Source: Phycisphaerales bacterium Planc_01 (GTDB lineage: Bacteria > Planctomycetota > Phycisphaerae > Sedimentisphaerales > Anaerobacaceae). From it: a DNA stretch of 64,000 bases. Each line of letters begins with the position of its first letter. The stretch's first letter is position 1. The stretch spans positions 124,001-188,000 of the forward strand of contig LVBB01000148.1 in NCBI GenBank assembly GCA_001603075.1, in the 5' to 3' direction. Under the pieces are notes generated by a model, which saw only the letters and a program-made list of their open reading frames with translations, did not search any database and was not told the origin of the DNA. Position numbers and translations under genes: made by a program. Of this stretch, positions 1,824 to 60,260 are shown piece by piece.

Positions 1824-1906
1824 GGGCCGCGGATGAACGATTTCACTGCTGATAGCCGATCTCCACATGCCCCCCGGGAAGCCGGTGGCAGCGAGAGGCA
1901 CCGTCA

Positions 1907-3775
1907 ATGAAATGGACATTACGCACGAAGATACTCTTGGGCTATGGTATCGCCCTTGCCCTGATGGTGGTCATTCTTGCGTGGTCCTACGCCAATCTGC
2001 GAGGACTGGGCAGAGCCAGCAATGCCATTCTTACGGAGAACTACAACAGCATTCTGGCCGCTGAGAACATGATCAACGCCATCGAACGGCAGGACAGCGC
2101 CATCCTCCTGCTGATCCTGCGCTATCAGGATGAGGGGCTTCGACAGTTCGCAGAGAACGAAAGTCAATTCCTGCAGTGGCTGGCCCGTGCGAAGGACAAC
2201 ATCACCATCGAGGGCGAAGCCGAGATCGTGGCCGCGATCGATTCGGGGTACGGGGCATATCTGGGCCGCTTCTCCCGGTTAAGCCTTTCGCTACGAACGG
2301 AACCAGCCGACGTGAATACGCTCTACCACGAGACGGTGTTGCCTTCGTTCAAATCGGTTCGTGATGCGTGCATTCACCTGCGCGAGATCAACCAGAAAAC
2401 GATGTTCGAGGCCAGCGAGCACGCTCGATATGTGGCCACGCGCGCGATCGTGTCGATGCTGACCCTCGGCATGGTGGCGATTGGAGTCGGACTGGCGTTC
2501 AGCCTCCTGCTTTCAGCCCTGTTGACCAAACCTCTGTCGCGGATCATCGCAGCCACGCACAAGATCGCCGAGGGCGATTACGATGTCGAAGTCGGGCGCG
2601 CCTCGTCGGATGAGTTGGGGCGACTCGCGACCGACTTCAACCTCATGACCAGGAAGCTGCGCGCGTACAGGGACTTGAACGTCCAGGAAATCGTCTCTGA
2701 GAAACAAAAGAGCGAGGCAATCATTCGCAGTGTCGATGACGGTCTCGTGGTGGTCGACACAGACTTCAAGGTGGCCGATATCAACCCGGCCGCGACGGCG
2801 ATCTTCGAAAGACGCCGACTCGACGTCGTCGGAAAGCACTTTCTCGAGCTCGTCAGCAACGAAGAACTACTCGGCGACATGCGGCAAGTTTGTGAATCGG
2901 GGCGGACACCGTCGGTCCCGGAAGCGGGCGAGAACCTCCTGAGCATTGAACGCGGCAGCCAGCAGCGGCACTATCAGTTTTCCATCACGCCCGTGAAGTC
3001 GGCGGACGCGGGGGTCATCGGCGTCGTACTCGTGCTCCGGGACGTCACGCGGCTCAAGGAGCTGGATCGGCTCAAGAGTGAATTTGTAATGGCCGCCTCG
3101 CACGAACTGCGGACTCCGCTGACGAGCATGAGCATGAGCGTAGAGCTTCTGCGGGAAAACGCGGCCGGCAAATTGAACGACAACGAACGTCAATTGCTCG
3201 AAGCCGCCCATGAGGAGATGCAGCGGCTCAGAGCTCTGGTCAACGACTTGCTCGACATCTCGAAGATCGAAGCCGGCAAGATGGACATGGCATTCGATCG
3301 GACGCCCGTCGCCATGCTGCTCGAAAAGGCGGTCGCCATGCTCAAGAACCAGGCGGACGAGAAATCCATCGAGTTGTCGTTCAAGATCGCCGAAGACCTG
3401 CCCGATGTCAAGGTCGATGCAAACAAGATCGCATGGGTGCTGACCAACCTGATCTCCAACGCGATGCGCTACACCGACACGGGAGGGTCCATCCGGCTCA
3501 GCGCCGAGGCGATCGGTCCGCAGATTCAGGTTTCCGTCACCGACAGCGGCGCCGGTATTCCCTACGAGTACCAGTCGCGTATCTTTGACAAGTTCGTGCA
3601 GGTCAAGACCGACAAATCGGTGGGGGGGACCGGCCTGGGGTTGGCCATCTGCAAGGAAATCGTGCGAGCGCACGGCGGTACGATCTGGGTCGATTCGGTC
3701 CCCGGCCAAGGCAGCACTTTCACGTTTACGATCCCGGTGGTAGAATGGGCGGGAAATGAAAGGACCAGAAGATGA
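1907..3775 (+). CDS. Membrane sensor histidine kinase (HAMP-PAS-HisKA-HATPase)
   Basis: 622 residues. An N-terminal membrane helix (about 8-27) is followed by an extracytoplasmic, mostly helical sensor region (about 30-175), then a second helix (about 183-207) and a HAMP linker (TKPLSRIIAATHKIAEGDYD). A PAS domain at about 265-370 ends in VVLVLRDVTRLKELD. The phosphoacceptor is H399 in FVMAASHELRTPL. The ATPase domain has the N box (LTNLISNAMRY), DSGAGIP and GGTGLGLAICKEIV. The layout resembles KinB/NtrY-type kinases. It overlaps the next gene by 4 nt (ATGA), so the response regulator is its likely partner. Three ion-transport genes follow, so the signal may concern potassium or osmotic state; that is inference. 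Confidence 0.9.
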   Translation: MKWTLRTKILLGYGIALALMVVILAWSYANLRGLGRASNAILTENYNSILAAENMINAIERQDSAILLLILRYQDEGLRQFAENESQFLQWLARAKDNITIEGEAEIVAAIDSGYGAYLGRFSRLSLSLRTEPADVNTLYHETVLPSFKSVRDACIHLREINQKTMFEASEHARYVATRAIVSMLTLGMVAIGVGLAFSLLLSALLTKPLSRIIAATHKIAEGDYDVEVGRASSDELGRLATDFNLMTRKLRAYRDLNVQEIVSEKQKSEAIIRSVDDGLVVVDTDFKVADINPAATAIFERRRLDVVGKHFLELVSNEELLGDMRQVCESGRTPSVPEAGENLLSIERGSQQRHYQFSITPVKSADAGVIGVVLVLRDVTRLKELDRLKSEFVMAASHELRTPLTSMSMSVELLRENAAGKLNDNERQLLEAAHEEMQRLRALVNDLLDISKIEAGKMDMAFDRTPVAMLLEKAVAMLKNQADEKSIELSFKIAEDLPDVKVDANKIAWVLTNLISNAMRYTDTGGSIRLSAEAIGPQIQVSVTDSGAGIPYEYQSRIFDKFVQVKTDKSVGGTGLGLAICKEIVRAHGGTIWVDSVPGQGSTFTFTIPVVEWAGNERTRR

Positions 3776-4467
3776 AGACCCGATCGGTTCTGATCGTCGA
3801 TGATGAGAAGAACATTCGCTTGACCTTGGCGCAGTCACTCGAAGCCCTGGAACTGGAGATCGACACGGCCGTCAACGGCGAAGAGGCCCTTGCGAGGATG
3901 AAGGACAAGAGCTTCTGTCTGATGCTCCTGGACCTCAAGATGCCCGGGATGGACGGCCTGGAGGTACTGCGATGGGTCAGCGAGAATCGGCCCGACGTGC
4001 GCGTGATCGTCATCACGGCGCATGGGAGCATCGACTCGGCCGTCGATGCCATGAAGTACGGCGCCGTGGACTTCATTCAGAAGCCCTTTTCTCCTAAAGA
4101 AATCCGCGATCTGGTGTCGAAGGTCCTCGACAGAAGCACGCTCACCGAGCCGAAAGCCCATGATTACGACGCCCGGATCGAAATGGCCAAGAAGTGTGTG
4201 GGCGAAAGACAGTTCGAGGCGGCCGCCGAGCACGCGCGCAGCGCCATCGCCATCGACGCCTCCCGTCCGGAAGCATTTAACTTTCTGGGCGCCCTCCACG
4301 ACGTTCGAGGCAGCCGCCTGGAGGCCCAGAAGAACTATCGCGCCGCTCTTTCCATCGACCCGACGTATGAACCGGCCCGCGTCAATCTTTACCGCTCGAC
4401 AAACGCCAAGCCCGGCGGCAGCGTGGCATTCGTCCGGGAAGAGGCGGGACCGGAGAAGGAAGGCTAA
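3772..4467 (+). CDS. Response regulator with C-terminal TPR region, no DNA-binding domain
   Basis: 231 residues. The receiver domain (about 5-120) has the acidic pair D10/D11, the phosphoacceptor D54 in LLDLKMPGMDG, T82 and K104 in DFIQKPF. This is followed not by a DNA-binding or sigma-54 domain but by a helical region (about 140-215) that reads as two tetratricopeptide repeats (CVGERQFEAAAEHARSAIAI and GSRLEAQKNYRAALSI). The output is therefore probably a protein-protein contact. Its start overlaps the kinase stop, and its TAA directly abuts the ATG of the first TrkA gene, so translation is probably coupled. The natural reading is a regulator that acts on a protein target, possibly within the same operon. 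Confidence 0.85.
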   Translation: MKTRSVLIVDDEKNIRLTLAQSLEALELEIDTAVNGEEALARMKDKSFCLMLLDLKMPGMDGLEVLRWVSENRPDVRVIVITAHGSIDSAVDAMKYGAVDFIQKPFSPKEIRDLVSKVLDRSTLTEPKAHDYDARIEMAKKCVGERQFEAAAEHARSAIAIDASRPEAFNFLGALHDVRGSRLEAQKNYRAALSIDPTYEPARVNLYRSTNAKPGGSVAFVREEAGPEKEG

Positions 4468-4926: not shown

Positions 4927-5579
4927 TCGTCGGCGGCGGAAAGCTCGTCTACTTCCTGTGCCGTTCCTTCCTGGCCAAGGGCTACCAGGTTACGATCGTC
5001 AACCGCAGCGCAGCCGAGTGCACGTGGCTGGCGCGACAGTCGAAGGCCACCATTGTGCTCGGCGACGGGAGCGACCCACGGATATTGCAGGAAGCGGGCG
5101 CCACGACGGCCGACGCCGTCCTGGCGGCAACACCGAACGACGAGGACAACCTGGTGATCTGCCAGTTGGCTTCCCTCCGTTTTGGCGCGCCCCGAACGCT
5201 CGCCCTGGTCAACGATCCCGATAATGAGGCTACGTTTCAGAAGCTCGGCGTCACCTCGGCGTTTTCGACAACCCACCTGGTCTCCAGCCTGATCGAACAG
5301 CGTGCGGGTTTCGAGGAAATCACGGCGATGACTTCCGTGGCCGAGGGAAAGGTCAACGTGACCGAAGTCCTCGTCAAACCCACGTCGCCCGTCGTCGGTC
5401 GAGCGCTGGCCGAGATTCAATTGCCGGACAATTCGCTCATTGGGTGCGTCCTGCGCGACAGCGAAGCTATCGTGCCTCGCGGCTCGACGACACTGAAGCC
5501 CTTGGATCGCCTTGTCGTGATCACGCTTCCGGAGAACCATGGGCAGGTGCTCAGAGCGCTCACCGGCGACGATACGTAA
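4914..5579 (+). CDS. trkA: TrkA family potassium uptake protein (TrkA-N plus TrkA-C)
   Basis: 221 residues. The TrkA-N Rossmann domain occupies about 1-130 (MHTVIVGGGKLVYFLCRSFL, then ATIVLGDGSDP) and a TrkA-C domain about 140-215 (VLVKPTSPVVGRALAEIQLP, then LIGCVLRDSEAIVPRG). It is the usual peripheral regulatory subunit for the TrkH channel encoded 15 nt downstream. GGAG sits 7 nt before the ATG. The glycine motif GGGKLV departs from the canonical GxGxxG at its last position, so nucleotide binding may differ from that of the upstream paralogue. Confidence 0.88.
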   Translation: MHTVIVGGGKLVYFLCRSFLAKGYQVTIVNRSAAECTWLARQSKATIVLGDGSDPRILQEAGATTADAVLAATPNDEDNLVICQLASLRFGAPRTLALVNDPDNEATFQKLGVTSAFSTTHLVSSLIEQRAGFEEITAMTSVAEGKVNVTEVLVKPTSPVVGRALAEIQLPDNSLIGCVLRDSEAIVPRGSTTLKPLDRLVVITLPENHGQVLRALTGDDT

Positions 5580-5594
5580 GACCAAGGAGCGACT

Positions 5595-7094
5595 GTGCGA
5601 CTCAGGACCAATTTGGCGCAGCAATACGCAGGCGTTCTTCACTACACCGGGCTGATCCTCGTTCTGGGCGGTTTGCTGATGTTGTGTCCGCTTGCGGTGT
5701 TGGTTGCGTGGCCGCAGGAGAGCCGTCACGCCGCTGCCTTCCTCATCCCGGCGGCGGTGCTTTGTGTCGTGGGCGCCGTCCTGTGGCGCGCCTTTCGCGC
5801 CGCCGGCACCAGGGGCCTCTCCGCTCAATACGCCGGTGTCGTCGTTCTGCTGAGTTGGCTTACCATCTGCCTGTTCAGCGCCTGGCCGTTGGCGGCCGCA
5901 CTGAAGATGAGTTTCACTCATGCCTTCTTCGAGTCCGTCAGCGGATGGACGACGACCGGCCTGTCCGTCGTGGACGTCACGCAGACCCCGCACCTGATCC
6001 TGCTCTGGCGCAGCATCATGCAACTGGCCGGAGGGGCCGGATTCGCCATCATCATGCTGGCGGCCCTCCTGGGGCCCGTCGGGCCGGCGCTGACTCTGGC
6101 GGAAGGACGGACCGACCAGTTGGTCCCTCACGTTCGCCAGTCCGCCAAGCTGGTCCTGTTGCTGTACGCCGGTTATGCTGCAGCAGGTGTGACGGCCTAT
6201 GCCCTATCGGGCATGAGCGTCTTCGATGCGATCAACCATGCGTTTGCAGCCATCTCAACCGGCGGGTTCTCCACGCGGTCTGAGAGCATCGGTCATTGGG
6301 ATTCGCCGCTGGTGGAGGCTGTCAGTATCCCCCTGATGGTGCTGGGCAATATGAACTTTCTGACCGCTTATCTGCTCTTTCGCGGAAGGTTCAGGGCGGT
6401 CTCGCGCAGCGGCGAATTGCGTCTGATGGCGGTCCTGCTGCCGGTCTGCATGCTCTGTCTGCTGTTCTCGGTCTGCCTGCCGCTGTACGCGACATTGGGA
6501 AAGAGCGTTCGTGTGGCGGTGTTCGAAACCTTCACCGCCTTGACCACCACGGGGTTCTCCACCGTCAGTTACGACCGATGGGGTTCGGAGAGCATATTCA
6601 TACTGATCGTTCTGATGCTGGTCGGTGGCGGCGCCTGTTCGACGGCCGGCGGCATCAAGCAATACCGCGTCTACGTTCTGTTCAAGACAGTCACGTGGGA
6701 CATTCGCCGGGCACTGTTGCCCAGGACCGCCGTGGTAGAAAATCACATCTGGCAAGGCGAAAGCAAAGACTTCATCAGCGAGGACCGCCTCCGCCGAGTG
6801 GGCACGTTCGTGTTTCTCTACCTGGCCACCTACTTCCTCGGCGTCGCCATTGTCGCGGCCCACGGCTACGGCGTCAAAGAGTCACTTTTTGAGTTCGCCT
6901 CCGCCCTGGGGACGGTGGGCTTGTCCGTTGGCGTAACCAGTTCGCAGGCGCCTCGCCTCGTGCTCTGGACCCAGATCGCCGGCATGTTCCTCGGCCGTCT
7001 CGAGTTCTTCGTCGTGATCGTAAGCCTCGTCAAGATAGCCGAGGACGCGCTGTCCATGCTCTCTCTCGGGCGAGCGAGAGAAGGAAGGAATTGA
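5595..7094 (+). CDS. trkH: TrkH family potassium uptake transmembrane protein
   Basis: 499 residues with about ten membrane helices and the four pore-loop repeats of the Trk/Ktr/HKT superfamily. Pore-like sequences include VSGWTTTGLSVVD, FAAISTGGFSTR, FTALTTTGFSTVSYD and ASALGTVGLSVGVT, each with the selectivity-filter glycine. The hydrophilic stretch GGGACSTAGGIKQYRVYVLF is also typical of TrkH. The start is GTG at 5595 with AAGGAG 5 nt upstream. It is the last gene of the operon, and with the two TrkA-type proteins it forms a cation (K+) uptake system in the inner membrane. The next gene is convergent and only 26 nt away. Confidence 0.93.
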   Translation: MRLRTNLAQQYAGVLHYTGLILVLGGLLMLCPLAVLVAWPQESRHAAAFLIPAAVLCVVGAVLWRAFRAAGTRGLSAQYAGVVVLLSWLTICLFSAWPLAAALKMSFTHAFFESVSGWTTTGLSVVDVTQTPHLILLWRSIMQLAGGAGFAIIMLAALLGPVGPALTLAEGRTDQLVPHVRQSAKLVLLLYAGYAAAGVTAYALSGMSVFDAINHAFAAISTGGFSTRSESIGHWDSPLVEAVSIPLMVLGNMNFLTAYLLFRGRFRAVSRSGELRLMAVLLPVCMLCLLFSVCLPLYATLGKSVRVAVFETFTALTTTGFSTVSYDRWGSESIFILIVLMLVGGGACSTAGGIKQYRVYVLFKTVTWDIRRALLPRTAVVENHIWQGESKDFISEDRLRRVGTFVFLYLATYFLGVAIVAAHGYGVKESLFEFASALGTVGLSVGVTSSQAPRLVLWTQIAGMFLGRLEFFVVIVSLVKIAEDALSMLSLGRAREGRN

Positions 7095-7120
7095 CGATCT
7101 GGCCGTCTGAACGGTCGCCG

Positions 7121-8074
7121 TCAGGCGGCGCCGATGCCGGCGAAGAGGCGGCGGGTGGCTTGGGTGCTTTCCTTGAACGCCTCCAGCGGGGTCATCGCGT
7201 TGGGCGAGCCGGTCTCGATGGCCTGCTCGAGGACGACGTGCGGGCGGACGGACGCCTGGCGCAGCATCTCGGCCAGGGCACGATAGTCGATGTCGCCGGG
7301 GCCGAACGCCTCGGTCCAGACGCCGCCCTGCGACTGGCGCAGGTGCAGCTCGCTGATGCGCTTGCCGTAGAGCTTGACGACGTCGAACAGCGCGACCTGC
7401 GAGTTGCCGGCGCCGCGATAGACCCAGTGGGCGTCGAGGCAGAGCGTCACGTTCGCCGGGTCGGTGCCGAGCATCATGTGGTGGAACTCGCGTGCGGCCT
7501 GCCGCAGCTCCATGTCGTGGTTGTGGTAGGCCAACGTGAGCCCCAGCTTCTTCAACTCGGCTCCAAGCCGGTTCAGTGCCGCGGCCTGCACCTTGAGTTG
7601 TTCGTCGTTCTTGTCCTGCGCGCCGCCCCACGCAAGCGGGTTGGGATTGGTCACGACGATCCGGGCCCCGGCCTCTTTGGCCCTGGGGGCGACGGTGAGG
7701 ATCTGCCGGATGCTCTCGTCGGCCCGGTCGGCCTCGTGCAGCAGGCTGTTGACATAGAACGACCGCATCTCCAACCCGTGCTTCTTCAGCAGCGGCGCCA
7801 AACGCTCGACCTGCGCGACGTCGGCAAACGAGGGCTCGAACCCGTTGAGCCCGCTGGCGGCCACCTCGGCCAGACCCTCATCGAGCGACTGGTCGAAGTT
7901 GCGGCCCTGCCGCTGGTAGAACACCGACCAGGAGTAGGCGTTGCAGGCCACGTGCAACGTCGCGTTCTGCGCAGCCGTTGCCGACCGGGCCAGGACCGGT
8001 GACAGCACCGCCGCCCCTGTCGCCCCAATCACATCGCCCAGGAACATCCGCCGCGTCATCCTTCGCTCTGCCAC
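7121..8074 (-). CDS. Tat-exported sugar phosphate isomerase/epimerase-like TIM barrel
   Basis: 317 residues from a GTG start at 8074, chosen because AAGGAGG lies 8 nt upstream; ATG at 8059 is the alternative. The N-terminus is a twin-arginine signal (MTRRMFLGDVIGATGAAVLS) followed by an AP-endonuclease-2/xylose-isomerase type TIM barrel. Seen in it are GLNGFEPSFADVAQVERL, YHNHDMELRQ (metal-binding His region), VTLCLDAHWVYRGAG and HLRQSQGGVWTEAFGPGDIDY with the usual late acidic and His ligands. Such exported barrels are common beside Gfo/Idh and DUF1080 genes in planctomycetes. The substrate is unknown. The gene has its own promoter at 8129-8157. Confidence 0.8.
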   Translation of the reverse strand: MAERRMTRRMFLGDVIGATGAAVLSPVLARSATAAQNATLHVACNAYSWSVFYQRQGRNFDQSLDEGLAEVAASGLNGFEPSFADVAQVERLAPLLKKHGLEMRSFYVNSLLHEADRADESIRQILTVAPRAKEAGARIVVTNPNPLAWGGAQDKNDEQLKVQAAALNRLGAELKKLGLTLAYHNHDMELRQAAREFHHMMLGTDPANVTLCLDAHWVYRGAGNSQVALFDVVKLYGKRISELHLRQSQGGVWTEAFGPGDIDYRALAEMLRQASVRPHVVLEQAIETGSPNAMTPLEAFKESTQATRRLFAGIGAA

Positions 8075-8208: not shown

Positions 8209-10332
8209 ATGCAACATGGGACGATCCGAATGCAAACGCTTGTCGCGGCGCTGTTTCTTGGCGGGTGGCTCAGCGGTCTTCGGGCCGCACCGGGCCCGGT
8301 GGCCATCGAGCCGCACTCGACGCAGGTCGGCAAGTACGAGAAGCTCGAACTGACGCTGAAACCGCAGCGGAGTTACGACAATCCCTTCGATCCGTGCGAG
8401 GTGGCGATCGACCTGATGGTTGAGTGCCCCAGCGGGAGATCCCTCGTTCTGCCGGCCTTCTTCGGCCAGGACTACGAGCGGAGGGACTTGCCCGGAGACG
8501 GCAAGGCGGTTGCGTGGTGCTATCCCGTCGGCCGAGGGACCTGGAAGGCGCGATTCGCGCCGGCCGAGACGGGAACGTTTGCGATCCGGGCCCGCCTGAG
8601 AGACCGCGAGGGCCAATCGCTCTCGCAGGCCATCCGCGTCGAGTGCATCCCATCACAGAGCCGGGGGTATCTCCGCGTCGGTCGGAAGGACCCGAGATTC
8701 CTGGAATTCACTGAAGGCGATCCCTTCTTCGCCGTCGGCCAGAACCTCGCGTTCATCGGCGAGAGCCAGTACGTCAACGTCCCCAAGACTGAGGCGATCT
8801 TCGCCGAACTGACGCGGAACGGCGCGAACTTCGTGCGGATCTGGACCTGCTGCGAAGACTGGGCCATCGCCATCGAGGCCCGCAAAAGCGCGTGGACGCG
8901 TTCATGGAACCGTCAATCGCCCATCGTGCCTTTGCCGGATGGTGAGGGCCGATGCGTCGTAATCAAGGGTGTGGACGGCACATCGATCGAGGTATCCCCT
9001 TCGCACCGTGTCGCCCTGCGTCCTGACACGAGCTACACGCTTCGCGGCCGGTTCAAGACCGAGGGTGCAACCGGCCTGCAAGTCCGGGTTGGCGACCACC
9101 GCTGGCAGGCACCCGCCGAGGCAGGCACGTGGGATACCTTCGAGAAGGAGTTCACCACTGGCGCGAACGAATACTGGCTGGGCCGCACGACCATCGCCCT
9201 TTCCGGTGACGGCACCGCGTGGCTGGCCGAGCTATCGCTGAAAGAAAGTGCCGACGGCGCCGAACTGCTCTGGGAGGCGGAGGTCAACCGCCCCGTACGC
9301 GGCTTTTACATTCCGCTCGACTGCTTCATGCTCGATCAGATCGTGCAGGCGGCCGAGCGAAGCGACATCTATCTGATGCTCTGCGTCCTGACGCGCGACC
9401 TGTACATGAACTCGTTGTCCGATGCCAGCAGTGCGGAGTACGACCAGGCCATCGCGGACGCGAAGAACTTCCTGCGACACGCCGTGGCCCGCTGGGGCTA
9501 TTCGACCAGCGTCGGCATGTGGGAGTATTTCAACGAGATCGATCCAGGCAAGCCAACGGATCGCTTCTACGGAGAACTCGGCCGCTATCTCGACGAGATC
9601 GACATCTACCGTCACTTGCGGACCACCAGCACGTGGCACCCGTCGGCGCGCGACTGCCGGCTGACGGCGCTGGACGTCGCGCAGTCGCACCACTATCTGC
9701 GGCCGGGCCAGGACGACTTCAAGGACGAGGTCGGCGCGATCCTCGACAAGGCGGCCTTCCTTCGCGAGCACGCCCCGCAGAAGCCCGCCCTGCTCGGCGA
9801 GTTCGGCCTGGCCACCGACAAATGGGGGCTCAGCGACCACATGAAGCAGGACGTCGAGGGCATACATTTCCGCAATGCGCTGTGGGCGTCGGCCTTTTCC
9901 GGACCATCGGGCACGGCGATGTTCTGGTGGTGGGAGCTGTTGGATCAGCAAAATGCCTACCACCACTATCGGCCGCTGGCGGCATACATGGAGGACATTT
10001 CGTTCGCGGGACTGACGGCCACGACGGCGACCGCGTCCGACGCACGTCTGCGTGTGCTGGGCTACCAGGGCAGCGATCGCGCCTATCTCTGGCTGTCCAG
10101 CAGAGATGCCGCGTGGTGGAATGTCGTCGTCGCCGGGCAGCGGCCGCAAGAGGTCGCGGCGGCAACGCTCGAAGTCGAAGGTCTGGCGCCGGGCGTGTAT
10201 GCCGTCCAATGGTGGGACACGCGCCAAGGGGTCTGCATCGAGACGCAGCACATTCAGTGCGAGCGGAGTCGGTTGAGCGTTCCCGTGCCGGCGCTACGCA
10301 GCGACGTCGCCTGCAAGATCGTACGCCCCTGA
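8209..10332 (+). CDS. Secreted clan-A glycoside hydrolase with N-terminal DUF5060-like domain
   Basis: 707 residues. A signal peptide (about 1-26, ending GLRAA) precedes a beta-sandwich of DUF5060 type (about 28-150: KYEKLELTLKPQRSYDNPFD, LPAFFGQDYER). A split TIM barrel follows, with a carbohydrate-binding-like insert at about 240-345. The barrel core begins with YLMLCVLTRDLYMN. The putative acid/base is E443 in MWEYFNEIDPG and the putative nucleophile is E531 in ALLGEFGLATD, the usual clan GH-A pair. The C-terminus is a small beta domain ending in YAVQWWDTRQG. AAGGAGA lies 8 nt ahead of the ATG. It is probably an extracytoplasmic polysaccharide hydrolase; the exact family and substrate cannot be given. 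It is convergent with the lipoprotein gene, with one base between the two stop codons. Confidence 0.8.
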   Translation: MQHGTIRMQTLVAALFLGGWLSGLRAAPGPVAIEPHSTQVGKYEKLELTLKPQRSYDNPFDPCEVAIDLMVECPSGRSLVLPAFFGQDYERRDLPGDGKAVAWCYPVGRGTWKARFAPAETGTFAIRARLRDREGQSLSQAIRVECIPSQSRGYLRVGRKDPRFLEFTEGDPFFAVGQNLAFIGESQYVNVPKTEAIFAELTRNGANFVRIWTCCEDWAIAIEARKSAWTRSWNRQSPIVPLPDGEGRCVVIKGVDGTSIEVSPSHRVALRPDTSYTLRGRFKTEGATGLQVRVGDHRWQAPAEAGTWDTFEKEFTTGANEYWLGRTTIALSGDGTAWLAELSLKESADGAELLWEAEVNRPVRGFYIPLDCFMLDQIVQAAERSDIYLMLCVLTRDLYMNSLSDASSAEYDQAIADAKNFLRHAVARWGYSTSVGMWEYFNEIDPGKPTDRFYGELGRYLDEIDIYRHLRTTSTWHPSARDCRLTALDVAQSHHYLRPGQDDFKDEVGAILDKAAFLREHAPQKPALLGEFGLATDKWGLSDHMKQDVEGIHFRNALWASAFSGPSGTAMFWWWELLDQQNAYHHYRPLAAYMEDISFAGLTATTATASDARLRVLGYQGSDRAYLWLSSRDAAWWNVVVAGQRPQEVAAATLEVEGLAPGVYAVQWWDTRQGVCIETQHIQCERSRLSVPVPALRSDVACKIVRP

Positions 10333-57824: not shown

Positions 57825-60260
57825 ATGGCAGACGAGATCGACAACAAGCCCGGTCAATCGGAGATCCTGCAATTCGCTTCGCTGATCGCGCACCAGCTCA
57901 AGAGCCCGATCAGCACGATCAGCACCCTTCTGGACGTGCTGGCCACCGAGGTGGCGGGGCCGCTGACGCCCAAGCAGAAGGACCTGATCGCCCGGGCGAA
58001 TCTGCGATGCGACGAGGGCGTGGCCACCGTGCGGCGGATGCTGGCCATCGTCTCGGCCCTGGGGCGTCAGGAGCATATCGACGGCGTCGTGGATGTGGCC
58101 GGCATCGTCCGCAACACCCGGACGCGCTATGAAGAGAAGGCCATCGAATACGGGCTGACCTTCGTGGTGCAGGCGGAGGACGAGCCGGCGTATGTCCGTG
58201 GCACGGAGCCGGCCCTAACCGAAGCGCTGGACGCCCTGATCGACAACGCGTTCAAGTACACCCCGTCGCATGGCCAGGTCCGGCTGACGCTGACCGTCGA
58301 ACCGGCGAACCGCCTCATCCATCTGTGCGTGGCGGATTCGGGCGTCGGTATTCCAGAGGGCATGCGAGAGAAGGTCTTCGAGCCATTCCATCGGACCGCA
58401 TCGGCGCGCAGCTCGACGCGCGGCGGGGTCGGACTGGGATTGTCGTTCGTCAAAGCGGTCGTCGAGGCGCTGGGGGGCACCGTCCAGGCCGGCAAGGCCG
58501 ATCTCGGCGGCGCCCGACTCGACATCCAGCTTCCGATGGCCGACCCGAGCGAGATTGACAGCCTCACAGACAGCGGCAGAGCGAGCGCCATGAAGGTGGT
58601 GATCGTCGGCGGTGTGGCCGCGGGGCCCAAGGTCGCCGCCAAGGTGATTCGGCTGATGCCCCACGCCAGTGTCACGGTGGTCGAGAAAGGCCAGTTTCTC
58701 TCGTACGCCGGCTGCGGGCTGCCCTATTACATCTCGGGCCAGGTCAAGAACCATGCGGAGCTGATGAGCACGCCGATGGGGGCGCTGCGCGACGCGGTGT
58801 TCTTCCAGAAGGTCAAGAACGTGCGTATCCTCAGCCGAACGGAGGCCATCAAGATCGACCGCGTCGCCAAGAGCGTCCGTGTCAAGGAGCTTGGCAGCCG
58901 GAGGGAATTCGACCTGGAGTATGACAAACTGGTGCTCGCCACGGGCGCCTCGCCGATCCGGCCGTCGATTCCCGGCCACGACCTCGACAACATCTTCTGC
59001 CTGCACGGGGTCCAGGACGCCGAAGGGATCAAGGCCGGCCTTTCCGGCGACCGGGCGCGCGACGTGGTCATCGTCGGCGGCGGCCTGATCGGTATGGAGA
59101 CGACCGAGGCCCTGGCCCGCAGCGGGTGCCGCGTGACCATCGTCGAGATGCAGCCGCAGACCCTGGGGATCCTCGATGCGGAAATGGCGCGACTGGTCGA
59201 ACTGCATCTCGAATCCAACGGCGTCAAGGTCCTGACAAACACCAAGGTCTGTGCGTTCGAAGGCGATGGCAAGGTGCATCGCGTCGTGACGGATCGCGGG
59301 ACGCTGGCGGCCGATCTGGTCATCATGGGCATCGGGGTCCGCCCGAACACCGCCCTGGCCCGTGCGGCCGGTCTGCAGATCGGCGAGACCGGCGGGATCA
59401 AAGTCAGCGAGCAGATGCGCACGTCGGACCCTGACATCTATGCGGCCGGCGATTGCGTCGAATGCACCGACATCCTCACCGGCCGCCCCGCTTATGTTCC
59501 GCTGGGCTCGACCGCCAACAAGCAGGGTCGCGTCGCCGCGGTCAACCTCTGCGGGGGCGAGGACGCCTTTCCGGGCATCCTCGGCAGCACGATCTGCAAG
59601 GTCTTCGACTACTGCGTCGCCCGCACCGGCCTGACGGAGCGCGCCGCGAAGGAACTGGGCTACGCGGTGACGGTCGCGCTGGCGCCCGCGCCGGATCGGG
59701 CCAACTACCTGTCCACCGCGCGCCTGCTGTTGCTCAAGCTCGTGGTCGATCGCGACACGCGACGGCTCCTCGGCGTCCAGGCCGTCGGGCCCGGCGCCGG
59801 AGACAAGCGAATCGACGTGGCCGCCACCGCCATTGCCGCCGGCATGACGGTCGATCAAGTGGCGGGCCTCGACCTCGGCTATGCCCCGCCCTATTCGCCG
59901 GCGATGGACAATCTGATTACCGCCGCCAACGTCGCCCGCAACAAGCTGGACGGCCACATGGTCGGCGTCTGTGCCGAAGAAGTGCACCGGATGCTCCAGG
60001 ACAAGAAGGACTTTGTCTTTCTCGACGTCCGCACACCTGGCGAGCACGACCAGGTCCGTCTGCCCGGCGCGACGTTGATCCCGCTGGCGACGCTGCGGGG
60101 ACGGATCGAGGAGATCCCGAAGGACAAACCGATCGTGACGTTCGGCCAGATCTCGCTGCGCGGGTACGAAGCGGCGCTGATCCTCCGCGCCTCGGGCTTC
60201 GAGGACGTCCGTGTCCTGGACGGTGGCATTGCGATGTGGCCCTACGAAAAATTGCAGTGA
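57825..60260 (+). CDS. Histidine kinase fused to CoA-disulfide-reductase-like flavoprotein and cysteine-less rhodanese
   Basis: 811 residues, one uninterrupted frame. Residues 1-245 form a soluble kinase without membrane or PAS domain: H box FASLIAHQLKSPIS with H23 (Gln follows His instead of the usual Glu/Asp), N box ALIDNAFKYTP (N141), DSGVGIPEGM (171-180) and GVGLGLSFVK (201-210). Residues 256-710 form a pyridine nucleotide-disulfide reductase: KVVIVGGVAAGPKVAAKV, the CoADR-type single active Cys C297 in FLSYAGCGLPYYISGQ, VVIVGGGLIGMETTEAL for NAD(P)H and IYAAGDCVECTD. Residues 712-811 are a rhodanese domain (VFLDVRTPGEHDQVRLPGA), but the catalytic Cys loop reads TFGQISLRGYEA, with Gly774 at the Cys position. 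M256 could start a separate reductase, but it has no ribosome site. Probably a cytoplasmic redox- or CoA-thiol-responsive kinase. Confidence 0.85.
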   Translation: MADEIDNKPGQSEILQFASLIAHQLKSPISTISTLLDVLATEVAGPLTPKQKDLIARANLRCDEGVATVRRMLAIVSALGRQEHIDGVVDVAGIVRNTRTRYEEKAIEYGLTFVVQAEDEPAYVRGTEPALTEALDALIDNAFKYTPSHGQVRLTLTVEPANRLIHLCVADSGVGIPEGMREKVFEPFHRTASARSSTRGGVGLGLSFVKAVVEALGGTVQAGKADLGGARLDIQLPMADPSEIDSLTDSGRASAMKVVIVGGVAAGPKVAAKVIRLMPHASVTVVEKGQFLSYAGCGLPYYISGQVKNHAELMSTPMGALRDAVFFQKVKNVRILSRTEAIKIDRVAKSVRVKELGSRREFDLEYDKLVLATGASPIRPSIPGHDLDNIFCLHGVQDAEGIKAGLSGDRARDVVIVGGGLIGMETTEALARSGCRVTIVEMQPQTLGILDAEMARLVELHLESNGVKVLTNTKVCAFEGDGKVHRVVTDRGTLAADLVIMGIGVRPNTALARAAGLQIGETGGIKVSEQMRTSDPDIYAAGDCVECTDILTGRPAYVPLGSTANKQGRVAAVNLCGGEDAFPGILGSTICKVFDYCVARTGLTERAAKELGYAVTVALAPAPDRANYLSTARLLLLKLVVDRDTRRLLGVQAVGPGAGDKRIDVAATAIAAGMTVDQVAGLDLGYAPPYSPAMDNLITAANVARNKLDGHMVGVCAEEVHRMLQDKKDFVFLDVRTPGEHDQVRLPGATLIPLATLRGRIEEIPKDKPIVTFGQISLRGYEAALILRASGFEDVRVLDGGIAMWPYEKLQ

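Follow-up and report, generated by a model that had tools for sequence, protein, structure and literature searches.

A conserved fusion of a histidine kinase with a persulfide reductase-type flavoenzyme and a rhodanese domain: a candidate redox-sensing switch

Introduction

Little is known about how two-component systems sense thiol, persulfide and NADH redox state in bacteria without glutathione. In the window analyzed here, a stretch of 64,000 nucleotides from Phycisphaerales bacterium Planc_01, one reading frame joins a histidine kinase to a flavin-dependent reductase and a rhodanese domain. Is this a genuine single gene and, if so, does the enzyme act as the sensor of the kinase? A C-terminal input domain is an unusual placement for histidine kinases. 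A sequence-only reading of the locus had proposed that the flavoprotein is the sensor, had likened it to CoA-disulfide reductase (CoADR) and had placed the signaling partner elsewhere in the genome.

Results

One open frame encodes the kinase, reductase and rhodanese domains

The gene is a single open frame of 811 codons on the forward strand, with a predicted product of 86.3 kDa (Table 1). Pfam domains follow each other along the chain in the order kinase (HisKA, E 6.6e-6, 26.5 bits and just below the 26.9 cut-off; HATPase_c, E 1.9e-22), CoADR-type flavin reductase (Pyr_redox_2, residues 256-552, E 4.9e-67; Pyr_redox_dim, residues 591-696, E 4.9e-19) and rhodanese (PF00581, E 3.4e-14, 53.5 bits). 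The AlphaFold2 model of the whole chain (mean pLDDT 82) contains a two-helix DHp hairpin of moderate confidence (pLDDT about 56-68), an alpha/beta CA fold and a reductase-rhodanese unit, with a low-confidence linker at residues 247-253. The H box, N box, G boxes, single reductase cysteine and rhodanese fold that had been read from the letters are thus all present in one frame, as judged by the frame itself, Pfam and motif inspection.

Table 1. Features of the fused gene, with coordinates in the window
Feature	Position	Strand	Basis
Complete fused gene, histidine kinase - Npsr/CoADR-type reductase - rhodanese, 811 aa	57825..60260	+	Frame also uninterrupted in relatives
DHp (HisKA) domain, two predicted helices, residues 11-41 and 49-80	57855..58064	+	Pfam HisKA 15-74; AlphaFold2 helices
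His23 codon, predicted phospho-acceptor, motif HQLKSP	57891..57893	+	His23 and Gln24 invariant in 12/12 fused proteins of alignment A1
HATPase_c ATP-binding domain, residues 127-239, with N, G1, F and G2 boxes	58203..58541	+	Pfam and motifs
Junction/linker, residues 240-255	58542..58589	+	Lacks the (A)GGAG-7nt-ATG start signal seen in the linker of order-level relatives
FAD/NAD(P)H reductase, CoADR/Npsr type, residues 256-705	58590..59939	+	Pfam; 46% identity to 6pfz in structural alignment
Cys297 codon (SYAGCGLPYY), equivalent of catalytic Cys42 of A. fulgidus Npsr	58713..58715	+	Invariant in 14/14 rows of A1
Rhodanese domain, residues 717-805	59973..60239	+	Pfam
Gly774 codon, replacing the sulfur-accepting rhodanese Cys (Cys519 of A. 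fulgidus Npsr)	60144..60146	+	Alignment

The kinase half carries the expected motifs, including N141 (in DNAFKY), DSGVGIP at residues 171-177 and GGVGLGLSFV at residues 200-209. We compared the protein with its relatives in an alignment of 14 rows, 12 of them fused proteins and the others unfused (alignment A1). H23, N141, the tested G-box residues and C297 are invariant among the fused proteins. The residue that follows H23 is glutamine in all 12, compared with the usual glutamate or aspartate; an acidic residue at this position is usual in HisKA-type kinases and is no defining requirement, so the strength of autophosphorylation is uncertain. No known type of sensor domain, PAS included, precedes the kinase, which bears out the earlier observation on this point.

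The enzyme half is related to NADH-dependent persulfide reductase

The reductase half has a PNDOR fold with a single active-site cysteine and retains the FAD- and NAD-binding motifs. The catalytic residues Cys297 and Tyr686 are invariant across the fused and unfused proteins of the alignment, suggesting that the chemistry is kept. The best PDB match of the modeled reductase-rhodanese part is the NADH-dependent persulfide reductase (Npsr) of A. fulgidus (6pfz; TM 0.95 by target length, 46% identity), and the loop STPMGALR (residues 315-322) corresponds to the CoA-closing loop of that enzyme. By sequence and modeled fold, the enzyme half is an Npsr relative. Membership of TIGR03385, the NCBIfam equivalog of CoA-disulfide reductase, was rejected because the protein scores 422.1 bits against a curated cut-off of 578.8. 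The CoA-disulfide reductase label is therefore unearned, all the more as the nearest solved enzyme, A. fulgidus Npsr, uses NADH to reduce persulfides and polysulfide and has no activity on CoA disulfide (PMC7969121). No other close CoADR/Npsr homologue was found in the genome that contains the window.

Npsr from A. fulgidus is described as accepting sulfur first on its rhodanese cysteine (PMC7969121). The alignment shows that this cysteine is lost in the clade of the window protein: position 774 is Gly in the window protein, both congeners (G005, G002) and the relative from the same family (G035), Ser in G043, and Cys in all other fused and unfused rows. With the usual entry to the sulfur relay gone, the polysulfide handling that had been suggested for this protein is unlikely to proceed through the rhodanese domain. 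The protein of this clade is more likely to be specialized for sensing the state of NADH, flavin or CoA thiol than for bulk reduction of sulfane sulfur.

The fusion is conserved and patchily distributed

The uninterrupted fused chain was found in 11 related genomes at 98-53% identity. These comprise two genomes of the same genus (G005, 98%; G002, 89%), one of the same family (G035, 73%) and eight from other families of the order (53-58%). In G001 the fused gene is split across two contigs with a 125-base overlap. Among 392 genomes drawn evenly there was one more carrier, another member of the phylum (G376, 54%), and 84,980 scanned species genomes yielded further fused contigs labeled Phycisphaerales (L072), Lentisphaerae (L073, L077) and Planctomycetota (L075), as well as a second Planctomycetota-labeled contig on which the gene is truncated at its 5' end (L080). 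The distribution is patchy: within the genus, two of six genomes lack the fusion, as do most genomes of the family.

The frame is a genuine single-chain fusion. The chance that an assembly error or a frameshift joined two genes is negligible: the junction is in frame and open in each of 11 separate genomes, as it is in contigs published independently, so we rejected an artefact, and a two-gene version of kinase and reductase was found in none of the relatives searched. The earlier reading had allowed for a sequencing error or for homologues that are always split, and neither was encountered.

Two further contigs carry interrupted copies. On a Paceibacterota-labeled contig, which may be misbinned (L074), a stop lies between reductase and rhodanese around position 10110; on a spirochaete contig (L087, about 5350-7786), a TAG falls inside the H box (HQM*SP), from either mutation or sequence error. 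CoADR matches of about 825-830 aa in other relatives (for example G058, G023 and G003) are not kinase fusions, as their extra length lies behind the rhodanese domain.

Trees group the fused kinases in one clade

In a tree of kinase domains, all fused kinases except that of the spirochaete form one clade with 100/100 support, as would be expected of an established signaling protein. This clade also holds a kinase at a contig end of G005 that probably belongs to another fused copy: a kinase half and a reductase half (L152 and L070, on contigs C71 and C38 of G005) lie at two contig ends that share 6 bases in frame, probably representing a second fused paralogue. In the reductase tree, the fused proteins form two groups within a polytomy that also holds unfused relatives, which allows for either a single origin followed by losses or two origins.

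We found no histidine kinase beside the closest unfused reductases (L040/L041, L076, L078, L079, L081-L083, L085 and L086, several of these loci being short or ending near the gene), and on these partly short loci a two-gene ancestor with a separate kinase next to the reductase was rejected. The closest unfused reductase genes of family f4 (L068 and L069, in G044 and G048) have a thioredoxin-type gene 9 nt upstream. At L069, a gene for a PAS-sigma54 activator also precedes the unfused reductase, placing another type of regulator near the same enzyme.

Relatives carry a start signal at the kinase-reductase junction

The linker of seven of the eight more distant order-level relatives contains (A)GGAG and, after a 7-nt spacer, an ATG that is in frame and lies a few codons ahead of the reductase. 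GGAG occurs at the same spacing in G376, and AGGAG at a similar place in the contig-edge copy L070. GGAGA followed by ATG after 4 to 9 nt is found nowhere else in the tested fused frames, save once in L035, and the linker sequence is otherwise variable among relatives. The glycine codon at the junction is GGA, although GGA makes up only 5-31% of the glycine codons in those genes; the product of these shares is about 3.6e-6 when third positions are treated as independent. The window gene and that of G005 have no such signal at the junction, and G035 has no start codon near it.

These observations suggest that the order-level relatives with the signal probably also make a free reductase from the fused gene. 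On the simplest reading, the signal is the ribosome-binding site of an ancestral free reductase, retained in these relatives and perhaps still in use. The clade of the window protein has lost the signal and, on the same reading, would make only the fusion.

Some relatives encode a receiver, Rex and hydrogenase-type subunits nearby

In the window, the fused gene lies among what we take, from their translations, to be genes for carbohydrate use, and a gene for a Gfo/Idh-type oxidoreductase ends about 50 bases upstream. No response regulator was found within about 50 kb of the fusion. At 1856-4464 on the forward strand, the gene for a membrane-type histidine kinase precedes that for a response regulator extended at its C-terminus; we rejected this pair as the partner, as it is self-contained, 53 kb away and of another receiver clade. 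The claim that no response regulator lies nearby thus stands for about 50 kb in the window and fails for two relatives in which a receiver is directly upstream. In G035, a single-domain receiver gene ends 39 nt before the fusion, and in G049 the order is Rex, a GAF kinase, a receiver and, about 10 nt later, the fusion.

The G049 locus is divergent from a cluster for sulfhydrogenase beta/gamma-like, molybdopterin, Fe-S, NuoH-like and NuoB-like subunits. Similarly, Rex is directly upstream of the fusion in G060, with HydB, HydG and molybdopterin genes divergent, and G043 encodes on one strand the fusion, Rex, HydB, HydG, Fe-S, NuoH, NuoB, NuoD and NuoL. Given that G043, G049 and G060 have only one or two Rex copies each, adjacency by chance is unlikely. 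A hydrogenase, Rex or receiver neighborhood was found at 5 of 16 fused loci and at none of 11 unfused loci (p = 0.06, with G049 and G060 belonging to one family); it is a minority of the fused loci and is absent from the window's own genus. Elsewhere, a NiFe hydrogenase-receiver operon lies about 4 kb from the fusion on L074, genes for Mrp/NuoL-type antiporters precede it on L087, and in three f2 genomes (L060, L062, L063) the genes downstream and convergent to it encode carbamoyl-phosphate synthase, NAD synthase, a glutamate-synthase-type flavoprotein and a GXGXG-motif protein.

The nearest non-fused kinase, on contig C39 of G005, belongs to a REC-HK-Rex-HydB-HydG-NuoH cluster that is syntenic with the fusion-Rex-HydB-HydG-NuoH order of G043. 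The window genome itself (G000) has, on its contig C16 at about 43.8-49.5 kb (L240), the order Rex-ShyB-ShyC-ShyD-ShyA-maturation protease-receiver, an NAD(P)-linked NiFe sulfhydrogenase operon in which the protease is presumed from its sequence. The receiver is CheY-like, starts a few bases after the protease gene and is an orphan, with no kinase within about 6 kb; the same orphan receiver is present in G002 and G005. In a receiver tree with long branches and weak forks, it falls in a clade with the receivers beside fusions and the receiver of the G005 C39 cluster, and among the kinases sampled, no other from G000 joins the fused kinase in the fused/C39 clade. A partner elsewhere in the genome, as had been supposed, is plausible for the window, where this orphan receiver is a good candidate, and does not describe G035 and G049, where the receiver adjoins the fusion.

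Discussion

Conservation of the fusion, together with several relatives in which it stands beside a response regulator, Rex and hydrogenase-type genes, points to a probable redox-sensing switch with an enzyme as its sensor. That the flavoprotein is the sensor, as first proposed, is plausible. We give an even chance to the full reading, from sequence comparison, of a soluble redox-sensing histidine kinase that takes the flavoenzyme as its input and passes phosphate to a receiver, probably controlling NAD(P)H-linked hydrogen and sulfur metabolism. The reductase half, a dimer in relatives, would bind FAD, NADH and CoA, and the supply of NADH against persulfide or other thiol oxidants would set the state, redox or ligand, of its flavin, Cys297 and CoA. 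This state would be passed through the short linker to the dimeric HisKA helices, raising or lowering autophosphorylation of His23. Phosphate would then move to a free-standing CheY-like receiver, whose gene lies next to the fusion or within a hydrogenase operon, a placement that makes NAD(P)H-linked hydrogen or sulfur metabolism the most likely output, tuned together with Rex. In many relatives, the second start at the junction would probably yield free reductase as well. The glutamine after H23, the minority share of fused loci with such neighbors, the weak forks of the receiver tree and the C-terminal position of the input speak against this reading.

The same evidence can be read in other ways. 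An unlikely but serious alternative is that the reductase half is unimportant as an enzyme, and that it binds NAD(H) or CoA and switches the kinase by occupancy, not turnover. Loss of the rhodanese cysteine in the window's clade and its replacement by Ser in G043, the retained NAD and FAD motifs, the match to the CoA-closing loop and the recurrence of Rex, an NADH sensor, as a neighbor would all fit such a protein; however, the invariance of Cys297 and Tyr686, fused or unfused, suggests conserved chemistry, and most fused relatives keep the rhodanese cysteine. Signaling might also run in reverse, with the kinase or its phosphorylation state regulating the reductase, or the fusion might merely tether the enzyme to a hydrogenase signaling complex. 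The fully conserved enzyme active site is compatible with this, as is the junction start signal of relatives, which implies that the enzyme is also wanted alone. We nevertheless consider it quite improbable, because histidine kinases normally signal to receivers and a receiver is immediately upstream in two genomes.

Least expected of these readings is that the internal start yields the product that matters, the free reductase, with the long chain a by-product of evolutionary read-through. The recurrent junction signal and the choice of GGA within it are what such a history would leave behind, but the kinase motifs of the long chain do not vary, and the window's clade has lost the start signal yet kept the fusion.

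A more specific form of the enzyme-as-sensor reading is offered tentatively, being possible and rather less than likely: a working metabolic flavoenzyme would serve as the kinase sensor, so that turnover of NADH and persulfide (CoA thiol) would be converted to phosphorylation of the receiver of the hydrogenase operon, and in many relatives one gene would supply both the kinase-linked sensor and, from the internal start, the free enzyme. The fusion provides a candidate sensor enzyme attached to its kinase and, in relatives, placed beside a response regulator, Rex and hydrogenase-type genes, so that each step from input through kinase to output is open to study with purified proteins. Nature also offers two experiments on how an enzyme turns into a sensor, one clade having lost the rhodanese cysteine and another having conserved the junction signal.

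Comparison with known systems

The open-access literature, represented for some matches by title and abstract, yielded no description of the kinase-reductase-rhodanese architecture, in agreement with the first reading, which knew of no described system built this way, and no two-component link to Rex or sulfhydrogenase. The closest known proteins to the reductase and rhodanese half are the Npsr enzymes (CoADR-Rhd; A. fulgidus 6pfz, B. anthracis 3icr, S. loihica 3nta and the E. faecalis CoAPR 8a56), which share that whole half, the single catalytic cysteine and the FAD and NAD motifs. The window protein differs from them in its additional N-terminal histidine kinase and, in its clade, in the Gly that replaces the rhodanese cysteine. 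The kinase half resembles HisKA/HATPase_c sensor kinases (YycG/WalK, CovS/VicK-like, CpxA, HK853) in its H, N, G1, F and G2 boxes and its DHp-then-CA order. Unlike these, the fusion has its kinase preceded by no membrane, HAMP, PAS or GAF input and followed by a flavoenzyme, and it reads HQ instead of HE or HD at the H box.

The REC-HK-Rex-complex cluster of G005 C39 shares the nearest non-fused kinase clade, the receiver clade, Rex and a gene order that matches the one next to the G043 fusion, whereas its kinase lacks a reductase and has another kind of input, about 200 aa long and N-terminal. CbrA is an SLC5 transporter fused to a kinase. Such enzyme- or transporter-linked kinases resemble the fusion in having a whole functional protein as kinase input; in the fusion, this input is a soluble oxidoreductase and not a transporter, and it is C-terminal and not N-terminal.
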